From positions 12,783 to 56,638 of the forward strand of contig CAKKQZ010000011.1 in assembly GCA_919902445.1 (NCBI GenBank): a stretch of DNA of 43,856 bases. Reading direction: 5' to 3'. This DNA is from Omnitrophica bacterium GWA2_41_15 (lineage in GTDB: Bacteria > Omnitrophota > Gorgyraeia > Gygaellales > Profunditerraquicolaceae). This document shows positions 13,585 through 16,574 of the stretch, piece after piece. A program made the position numbers and the translations under genes. Position 1 is the stretch's first letter; each line of letters starts with the position of its first letter. Below the pieces are notes generated by a model, which saw only the letters and a program-made list of their open reading frames with translations, did not search any database and was not told the DNA's origin.

Positions 13585-13613
13585 TTGACAGCACTAAAAA
13601 AATAAGTTATATT
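13585..13613 (+). promoter_or_regulatory. Sigma70-type promoter TTGACA-N17-TATATT
   Basis: -35 at 13585-13590, 17-nt spacer, -10 at 13608-13613. Confidence 0.8.
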
Positions 13614-13689
13614 TAAATTAAAGTTTTTTATAGCAGAAAATCCGCATATCCCAATCTCGGAGGTGATTGGGAGTTTTAGTCTATAGCTT

Positions 13690-13728
13690 AACCGGATTGA
13701 CATTGGGTCGGTCCGGTTCTTTTATTTG
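13690..13728 (+). terminator. Intrinsic terminator / attenuator hairpin
   Basis: 12-bp stem AACCGGATTGAC-ATTGG-GTCGGTCCGGTT (two T.G wobbles) followed by CTTTTATTT. Confidence 0.7.
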
Positions 13729-13784
13729 TCAAGACATCATTAGTTTTACTTGACATTTGCAAGAAATCATATAAAAATACAAAT

Positions 13785-16574
13785 ATGCTAAAAAAGACTC
13801 TTTTCTTATCAACCTCTGTTTTTTTGTTATTTTCCCTTTTGGTCATTAATTCTTCTGTTTTTGCCGCTTCAGCTGCCTCTGAGTACCTCTGCGGCTTCGC
13901 TATGCAGTTTTACCGCATGGGAAGATATGAAGATGCCCTTTCAGAATTTAAAAAAGTACTACTTATCGACCCCGAAAATAAGACCGCTCAGGAATATATA
14001 AATAATATCTTTCAAAAGGAATCTACTTCCGCTGAAATAGCAGTTAGGCCCTTGAAGCAGCATCCCGCTGCTTTAAAGCAGCGGGATGAGGAAATATCTC
14101 CTCTGAAGAAACCAATTACAAGAGAAGAGGCGATAAATAAGGCCTTTAAAAGCCTCTCCAGAGAACAATTCAATAAGCAGATGGAAAATGGTTCTGAAAA
14201 AAACGGGCACAATATGGCAGGTATTAGGGTAGCCGGAAAGGCGCAGGTAAGTTTCGGAGTGACACCTGATGATGCAATTTGGAAGCGCGCAAACTTTGAT
14301 TTAAACGAAAAGGTAAAAAGCTGGCGCACGAGTTCAGATGCGGTTTTTAATAAAAGATTTAATACTTATGACCCTAGGGTTTACGATAGCTTAAGTGTGG
14401 ATTTGGACACTGAAAATAAAGATGGCTTAAATTTTCATTCCAACGTTACGGCTGATCCATGGAGCTTTGTTGGTAAGAGCAGTAAAACTACGGTTACTGG
14501 CTCAAATGGCGATACTGCAGAAATTGAACTTTTGTATTGGTCGAATACGGGTTATGTTGTTAACAGCACTGCTTATACTTTAAGGGGGGGTGAGACCTTC
14601 GGGATCCCCGAAATAAAAGTAAAGAATAGCAAGACAAGCCCTGCTACTATAACAGGGTTTAGAAATTCAGGTACTACTTTTAGTATTCCTGAGTTGAAGA
14701 TATACCGCGAGTTTCAACCTATCCGCGAGCTATGGCTGGATTATACCAATGATCAGATTAAATTGCGGGCTTTTCCTATGGCTTATCAGGACCAGGCTTA
14801 TTCCTCTGATGATCCGCTGGGTATAACTAACCACCATATTTGGTGGCAGGATAGCACTTGGCTGCGCAAGTATGTACCTGGAAATTACAATTCTACTGAT
14901 ACTCCCAACCCGAGTTTTACCAAAGGGTACTGGGATGATTCGCTTTCATTCCTGGCTAAAGATTCAACCGGAGCATATCTTACTGCCTTGCGCGGGTTTT
15001 CTTTTACTTTCCAGCCAAGAGACAAAACCTTGTTTGATACTACCATTGCTACTCCTAAACACCTCTGGCAGGATTACGCACAGGTCGATAACCTAATTAC
15101 CGCTAGCCGGGTTAAGCATTATTTGGATGAGAATTTCATGATTGGAGGAACTTTTACCAGCCGTTTAGGATTTAAGGTTGATGACAAAAGAAAACTGGAT
15201 AGCCAAAATTACGTGGGGGGCTTGGATTTAGGTTACGAGATAGCTGATGGATTAAAAGCTCAGGCAGAGGTAGTAACTTCGAAATCATTTTATGATCAGG
15301 TAAACCCTAATTATGAAACTGAATCCCGCGGCAACACTTATTATTTTTCTTTTGTTACACGTTATCCGCGGCAGAGCATCATGGATTTAAAATACGTTTA
15401 TGATGAGATATCTTTGGATAAAACCGAATCATTCTTGGTTAAAAGCAAATTCTACGCTGCGCGCATGGATAAAGGCTTTGATTCCTCGTTATCAAATTTC
15501 CATAACACCCGTCAAGATACATTTTGGTCCAGGCATATTAATTTCCGCAGGCCGTTTGATTATTATTACGCCGGGCTGACTAAGCCGACTAGTAAATGGG
15601 ATGAGCTTAATCCTATCAGAATCGGAGACGGTATTGACAACGGTAGGAATGTTTTGGGATTTAGGATCGAGTTTATAGCAGAAGATAAATTCTCCAATCT
15701 TTTTGATGTGCGCAACGTGCACAATGTCAACGGTAAATTTATCGAAAATGTGGTGCGTGATGAGGCTACGTCTAAAGTAACCGATAAGCTGACTGCTAAA
15801 GTTTTAGGTATTTATCAGAAACTCCCTCGTACTCTTGGCGGCTCCGGAGGCATCGATCCTTTTATTTATGATGGAAACACAGGAGAATTCTTTAATAATT
15901 CATCGGTTATAGACGGAAATGACCCTACGCTTAAAACCGGGTCTCTCGGCCTTAATTATGATTTTTTAAATTGGCTGAGCTTAAACGGCATATATGAACG
16001 CACCAATGATTATTTTCTGGCTTACGACGGTTTTCCGGCTAACACACTGAGAAACGATACGACCCTTGGCGGAACTTATTATCAGAATGATAAGCTTTAT
16101 CGTTTTCGCGACCCTTTTCTTTACAGCCAAGGTGGTTTTCCGCAAGCGCCTTATGAGTTTTATAATGTTTTTAAAGCTGGCTTAAGGATGCAGCCAGTGA
16201 ACAATATGGACATTTATTTAGATTACACGCGTAATATATTTGAGAGCGCTGGGCAAAACTCAGACGGCATGAATCATGTCGGCTTAGAGATGACCTACAT
16301 GCCAGCTAAAAAATTCGGCATGACGCTTAAATATACCTATTCCCGGTGGCAGGATACTGACCGCCTAGTCGCAGGCAGTACCAATCCTCTTGGCCATCAC
16401 AATTTTTTTGGAGAATTCAGATACCTGCCCTCAACAGACGATGAATTAATCCTGCAGTACGGGGAAGGTAATTCTAGTCCCATCGGTAATATGACCTTTG
16501 ACCCTTATGGTGGCGGGCTATTAACAATAGATACCCAGCACATCTTCCGCGCTTATTACCGCCGTAAGTTTTAA
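13785..16574 (+). CDS. Putative outer-membrane protein: signal peptide, short TPR, C-terminal beta-barrel
   Basis: Signal peptide; MGRYEDALSEFKKVLLIDPENKTAQEYI TPR; alternating aromatic/hydrophobic strands ending HIFRAYYRRKF. Confidence 0.8.
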   Translation: MLKKTLFLSTSVFLLFSLLVINSSVFAASAASEYLCGFAMQFYRMGRYEDALSEFKKVLLIDPENKTAQEYINNIFQKESTSAEIAVRPLKQHPAALKQRDEEISPLKKPITREEAINKAFKSLSREQFNKQMENGSEKNGHNMAGIRVAGKAQVSFGVTPDDAIWKRANFDLNEKVKSWRTSSDAVFNKRFNTYDPRVYDSLSVDLDTENKDGLNFHSNVTADPWSFVGKSSKTTVTGSNGDTAEIELLYWSNTGYVVNSTAYTLRGGETFGIPEIKVKNSKTSPATITGFRNSGTTFSIPELKIYREFQPIRELWLDYTNDQIKLRAFPMAYQDQAYSSDDPLGITNHHIWWQDSTWLRKYVPGNYNSTDTPNPSFTKGYWDDSLSFLAKDSTGAYLTALRGFSFTFQPRDKTLFDTTIATPKHLWQDYAQVDNLITASRVKHYLDENFMIGGTFTSRLGFKVDDKRKLDSQNYVGGLDLGYEIADGLKAQAEVVTSKSFYDQVNPNYETESRGNTYYFSFVTRYPRQSIMDLKYVYDEISLDKTESFLVKSKFYAARMDKGFDSSLSNFHNTRQDTFWSRHINFRRPFDYYYAGLTKPTSKWDELNPIRIGDGIDNGRNVLGFRIEFIAEDKFSNLFDVRNVHNVNGKFIENVVRDEATSKVTDKLTAKVLGIYQKLPRTLGGSGGIDPFIYDGNTGEFFNNSSVIDGNDPTLKTGSLGLNYDFLNWLSLNGIYERTNDYFLAYDGFPANTLRNDTTLGGTYYQNDKLYRFRDPFLYSQGGFPQAPYEFYNVFKAGLRMQPVNNMDIYLDYTRNIFESAGQNSDGMNHVGLEMTYMPAKKFGMTLKYTYSRWQDTDRLVAGSTNPLGHHNFFGEFRYLPSTDDELILQYGEGNSSPIGNMTFDPYGGGLLTIDTQHIFRAYYRRKF
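14061..14088. repeat. Perfect 28-bp palindrome CATCCCGCTGCTTTAAAGCAGCGGGATG inside CDS
   Basis: Sequence equals its own reverse complement. Confidence 0.95.

Follow-up and report, generated by a model that had tools for sequence, protein, structure and literature searches.

A putative cis-regulatory RNA family with a GGAGG-loop hairpin precedes genes for predicted exported proteins in one order of Omnitrophota

The leader of an outer-membrane-protein gene in the window (the whole stretch of 43,856 nucleotides analyzed here) is probably one copy of a cis-regulatory RNA family that has no Rfam entry and is characteristic of one Omnitrophota order. The best reading of its layout is a cis-acting transcription attenuator, which would be terminated by default and turned on when an antiterminator is stabilized. 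Switching between a terminator and an antiterminator is a well-known mechanism; what is new here is the family itself, together with where it occurs and which genes it precedes. Uncultured organisms thus contribute a populous regulatory RNA family, with covarying stems, that Rfam lacks; it marks a predicted regulon of giant exported proteins and, as an orphan sensor, offers an entry point to how small-genome Omnitrophota control contact with other cells.

Anatomy of the window copy

The element lies on the forward (+) strand and begins with a sigma-70-type promoter, TTGACA-N17-TATATT (13585–13613; −35 TTGACA at 13585–13590, 17-nt spacer, −10 TATATT at 13608–13613), which matches the consensus at 11 of 12 positions and predicts a transcription start near 13620. 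Downstream are the antiterminator 5′ strand AATCCG (13639–13644) and the hairpin P2 (13649–13672), whose covarying stem, formed by TCCCAATC (13649–13656) and GATTGGGA (13665–13672), closes a conserved purine loop, TCGGAGGT (13657–13664), with the GGAGG motif at 13659–13663. A joining region (13673–13689) leads into the intrinsic terminator (13690–13727), in which the primary sequence CCGGATTGAC...GGGTC is conserved. The terminator hairpin (13690–13718) comprises 12 pairs and a 5-nt loop, and is followed by CTTTTATTT; none of the other terminator-like sites within 4 kb, 12 in all with this one, is as strong. Part of its 5′ arm, CGGATT (13693–13698), is the antiterminator 3′ strand and is exactly complementary to AATCCG. 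The promoter, AATCCG, the hairpin and the terminator all lie where the preliminary description had placed them, and the leader folds to −34.3 kcal/mol (vs −22.2 kcal/mol), surpassing 200 of 200 dinucleotide shuffles (z = −3.6).

The gene downstream (13785–16574, + strand) encodes a 929-residue exported protein with an N-terminal TPR region, a beta-barrel-like part and a weak match to OMP_b-brl, and has close relatives in Candidatus Omnitrophota genomes. Between the terminator and its ATG at 13785 is a second promoter-like site, absent from the preliminary description (TTGACA-N17-AAAAAT, 13750–13778, + strand), which ends 6 nt 5′ of the ATG. The host genome is 1.29 Mb in size and 95% complete, with the window on contig 11.

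Distribution and consensus of the family

Among the upstream regions of homologous genes, several have the same arrangement and many do not. A pattern for the terminator core, CCGGATTGAC-N-GGGTC-N-CCGG, matches in 17 of 147 related genomes, at one or two places in each, and the reversed control pattern has no match in the 147; upstream of nearly all of the copies in those 17 genomes lies a GGAGG-like hairpin or a GCCACGG motif. With a covariance model of 12 related leaders (R1), about 100 copies were detected in 60 of the 147 genomes, nearly all of one order, with at most seven per genome; these genomes are assemblies from metagenomes, and the E-values are rough. A second model (R2), built from 92 copies and searched over a 384-genome sample of the phylum, gives strong matches only in families f1, f5 and f6, all of one order, and in one f39 genome, with weaker candidate matches scattered elsewhere in the sample. 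Conservation in homologous upstream regions had been set as the test of the original proposal; the same arrangement is present at about 100 loci, and its stems covary.

The preliminary description could name no family for the element, and the database agrees: at the gathering score, Rfam 15 has no match to the element at the window or at 12 related loci, and the E-value mode returns just weak, unrelated or off-element matches. In the literature searched, no description of an Omnitrophota riboswitch or an Omnitrophica noncoding RNA motif was found.

The consensus order, 5′ to 3′, is promoter, about 20–25 nt, AAUCCGG, hairpin, joining region and terminator. Within the 75 nt examined upstream, 75 of 90 copies have a promoter matching at least 10 of 12 consensus positions, and in most of these the −10 box ends 19–30 nt 5′ of the element. 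The hairpin combines a variable, covarying stem with a conserved loop of consensus UGGAGG; the loop contains exactly GGAGG in 70 of 92 copies, variants (GGGGG, AGAGG, AGGGG, GGAGA) in others and none of these in five. The joining region has a median length of 18 nt and carries CCACG or CCAUG in 48 of 92 copies. The GCCACGG joint, or a close variant, is absent from the other 44 and is common to the family, yet not defining. UCCGG and CCACG co-occur (Fisher p = 3e-4, uncorrected for ancestry). The terminator consensus, CCGGAUUGAC...GGGUC...CCGG followed by a U-tract, is unusually conserved in sequence (CC 98–99%, G 96%, distal GAC 79–97%), and two unpaired Gs in its loop are conserved in about 65–85%. 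Conservation of the apical GAC...GGGUC and these two Gs exceeds the needs of termination or of the antiterminator, and GAC...GGGUC is kept at one locus (L006) despite an altered lower stem.

The window copy itself is weakly placed in the family: it lacks the GCCACGG joint and has a second promoter between terminator and gene. Its scores are 73.8 bits (R1) and 62.2 bits (R2), partly by construction, as it is one of the seeds. A second, weaker copy in the window's own genome (L162, G000:C27:14776-14877; 37 bits with R2) precedes a giant-protein gene that is truncated at the contig end.

Covariation and the antiterminator

Across 96 aligned copies, the P2 pairs are kept in 92–94% of cells, with 28–43 double-sided changes per pair, and double changes occur at 23 of 23 pairs of the hairpin and terminator stems. 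Over the whole structure, 85.9% of cells are paired, against 73.6% when shuffled (0 of 500 shuffles reach the observed values) and 28–46% in slid control structures; the alignment was fitted to the model structure, and these counts lean towards it. RNAalifold, applied de novo to 92 copies, recovers the same two helices, the loop hairpin and the terminator.

For the antiterminator, the alignment columns show covariation no better than that of shuffles; since both strands are nearly invariant, it cannot be judged in this way. As a six-nucleotide complementarity in a single sequence may be due to chance, the decision falls to conservation, and this was assessed by a partner swap, in which the duplex energy between the 5′ segment of each copy and its own terminator 5′ arm was compared with that obtained with the arms of other copies. 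Own partners average −8.66 kcal/mol and swapped partners −7.61 kcal/mol (mean gain 1.05 kcal/mol, z = −6.3, 0 of 5000 permutations), and the excess persists when the set is reduced to 67 sequences that are less than 70% identical (z = −5.0, 0 of 5000); permutation tests of this kind correct only partly for shared ancestry. Three control segment pairs had no comparable own-over-swapped excess. The pairing of AATCCG with CGGATT, first proposed from one sequence, is maintained across about 100 loci, and a predicted AAUCCG/CGGAUU antiterminator is supported. Pairing of the 5′ segment with the GCCACGG joint (UCCG/CGGA) was also considered and looked convincing in some copies; own partners here have no advantage over swapped ones, and this helix was rejected. 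In a subset of copies, long AU helices link the 5′ segment and the joint.

These data bear on the simplest alternative, that an ordinary terminator happens to lie beside an unrelated stem and that the antiterminator complementarity arose by chance. A six-nucleotide complement alone is not rare, and terminator-like sites generally outnumber shuffle expectation in the window region; such a reading is nevertheless hard to square with about 100 homologous copies in which the stems covary and the complementarity is maintained. The viral data count against it as well: when viral contigs were scanned for the 15-base terminator core, at least 120 stretches matched, and among the viral matches listed (80 loci, on contigs selected for that core) none fits the covariance model. 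We regard coincidence as scarcely credible, and at the family level the comparative data already refute it.

When the window leader is folded step by step as it grows, the antiterminator has a probability of about 0.85 at 13700–13705, before the terminator 3′ arm emerges. Once the 3′ arm is complete, the terminator is calculated to be more stable by 13 kcal/mol, so that the intrinsic default would be termination unless the antiterminator is held.

Target genes

Nearly all copies with enough contig are followed by a co-directional ORF within 350 nt, at a median distance of 61 nt to the start codon. A signal-like N-terminal segment is present in 75 of 85 downstream ORFs, as called by a crude hydrophobicity rule and not by a signal-peptide predictor, and almost all of the targets are predicted to be exported proteins. 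Three families account for most of them: 34 of the 85 ORFs belong to one giant exported-protein family (990–3600 residues in the longer stretches read; N-terminal consensus ...FAQVA.ELN...DKFRPLHLRYFSYDS...LLDKGD), 24 to an exported family of about 465 residues (...SVTPYEGGYDLRFG...) and 13 to the TPR/outer-membrane-protein family of the window gene. The remaining targets include a polysaccharide export protein and two PilZ proteins. Two copies, L156 (in genome G091) and L160 (in G070), have GCCACGG, lack the GGAGG loop and are followed by a small PilZ-domain gene. Giant proteins of Omnitrophota have been proposed to serve adhesion or predation (PMC10066038).

Some of the giant exported targets contain domains of glycolytic enzymes (L232, L146:575-4072, L237:76-9099 and, on the minus strand, L231). 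The fullest set is in L232, a minus-strand ORF of 3600 residues (G100:C4:3000-21800) that combines a signal-like N-terminus with GAPDH (N and C), PGK, TIM and enolase domains; the others have PGK and/or TIM domains. A secreted fusion of lower-glycolysis enzymes, as predicted for L232, would be very unusual.

Cis-acting attenuator or small RNA

The proposed attenuator would work as follows. The transcript from the distal promoter would normally be about 110 nt long and end at the terminator. The antiterminator helix AAUCCGG/CCGGAUU, which encloses the hairpin and is mutually exclusive with the terminator, would be stabilized when some factor binds the hairpin loop and the joining region, and RNA polymerase would then read into the exported surface-protein gene. 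Candidates for the factor are a small molecule, an RNA-binding protein or another RNA, for example the 3′ end of 16S rRNA.

A leader of this kind had been described from the outset as either riboswitch- or attenuator-like or an sRNA of about 110 nt. A stand-alone, trans-acting sRNA with the GGAGG loop as a seed or ribosome decoy would fit the element's own promoter and terminator and the strong conservation of the terminator sequence, which extends to loop bases unneeded for pairing; a promoter downstream of the terminator, present in 19 of 22 copies before the 465-residue family and in the window, also fits. Against it, the element keeps a fixed position immediately before genes of a small number of families, the conserved antiterminator complementarity would have no role in such an RNA, and Hfq was found in none of 14 element-bearing genomes searched. 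Of the giant-protein targets, none of the 31 with room for a promoter between element and gene has a detectable one. Because these 31 of 31 genes lack a promoter of their own past the terminator, the attenuator is favored, and an sRNA seems to us unlikely.

Promoter placement in the remaining families is more varied. In the window gene's family, three of eight copies, the window included, have a promoter between terminator and gene. Where the element is missing from homologues of the window gene, there is mostly a strong promoter with a −10 box that ends 7–11 nt 5′ of the ATG, and the second promoter of the window is the counterpart of these; most element-bearing homologues lack a promoter so close to the start codon. 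We read the element and the start-codon-proximal promoter as what look like interchangeable upstream regulatory modules. As the window gene has its own ATG-adjacent promoter, the element would not be its sole control and may only add to its expression; in the window copy and in the 19 before the 465-residue family that have a second promoter, the terminated RNA could have a different function. Strong sigma-70 promoters with −10 boxes that end 7–11 nt 5′ of the ATG, for example at L003, L004 and L033–L052, imply leaderless or nearly leaderless mRNAs.

As an attenuator, the element shares with ON-type transcriptional riboswitches a basal helix that encloses a conserved core and has its 3′ strand in common with the terminator; it differs from them in having no known aptamer or Rfam match and few conserved nucleotides, most of which are in the loop. 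It likewise resembles the RAT targets of BglG, SacY and LicT, in which the antiterminator helix overlaps the terminator 5′ arm and would be stabilized by binding, but the BglG-type RNA-binding domain (CAT_RBD) is encoded in none of 14 element-bearing genomes, and a BglG-type protein was rejected.

Candidates for the trigger

Several other candidates were rejected. The loop resembles the CsrA-binding sequence ANGGANGU, but CsrA is encoded in only 7 of the 147 genomes and in none of the 60 that carry the element, and GGA is missing from a minority of loops. No conserved leader peptide is seen: an ATG lies 3–11 nt past GGAGG in just 8 of 85 copies, and the ORF lengths are scattered. Like the leaders recognized by RfaH and LoaP (ops, dRS), which act through antitermination, the element has a short, conserved, G-rich hairpin that precedes long genes for cell-surface proteins. 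It differs from them in that no second NusG-domain protein was found: each of 98 genomes has one NusG-domain locus at most, and a specialized NusG was rejected; the two partial matches at contig ends in G028 are probably one split gene.

An ANTAR antitermination protein that binds the loop hairpin together with a second hairpin and so blocks the terminator was also considered. ANTAR-domain proteins are encoded by 13 of 14 element-bearing genomes tested, and the leaders regulated by NasR, AmiR and EutV have a similar general layout, in which a hairpin with a recognized loop lies just 5′ of a terminator whose 5′ arm is held in an antiterminator that excludes it (PMC3369931). ANTAR target RNAs, however, consist of two hairpins with six-base loops in which the first base is A and the fourth is G (PMC3369931), a loop pattern seen in 1 of 92 hairpins; the element has one hairpin, with loop columns that read U-G-G-A-G-G, together with a frequent GCCACGG joint and a conserved terminator sequence. 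Genome G024, moreover, which is 96% complete, has six elements but no ANTAR match. An ANTAR trigger therefore appears highly improbable to us.

A small-molecule riboswitch, for instance a second sensor of c-di-GMP, would suit the surface-protein targets, the PilZ protein that is the target of two copies, and the genomes themselves, which have GGDEF proteins in 117 of 117 and c-di-GMP-I riboswitches (RF01051) in 137 of 147 cases. The c-di-GMP-I riboswitch is abundant in the same genomes, also precedes genes for surface or exported proteins, and in five genomes is convergent with the element at a distance of about 7 kb. The two RNAs nevertheless differ in structure, with no Rfam match of the element to c-di-GMP-I, and about 57 genes examined downstream of c-di-GMP-I include none from the target families of the element, indicating that the two are not swapped before the same genes. 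The argument for c-di-GMP from shared targets was rejected, as no target family is shared, and we consider a small-molecule riboswitch of this kind improbable.

Taken as a whole, the attenuator may belong to a new signal-sensing antitermination RNA class restricted to one order, in which a factor that reads the GGAGG loop releases transcription of giant surface proteins; we put this forward tentatively, as a proposal somewhat short of even odds. The reader of the loop is possibly the anti-Shine-Dalgarno sequence of the ribosome, a new RNA-binding protein or a new ligand. Whether the loop reads GGAGG or GGGGG, it can still pair with CCUCC, and this tolerance fits anti-Shine-Dalgarno pairing, which is offered here as an idea and not as a result.

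The facing pairs of element and c-di-GMP-I riboswitch, 6–8 kb apart, are found at G067:C14, G069:C90, G139:C46, G038:C53 and G080:C3, and the genes between them, where read, include Ig-like/SdrD_B-domain proteins. The c-di-GMP-I riboswitches number up to 17 per genome and, by eye, precede glycosidase, ribbon-helix-helix-like and haemagglutinin-like genes. Two of the GGDEF matches, in G033:C2 and G040:C2, belong to giant open frames that are 70,450 and 42,913 codons long (129–211 kb).
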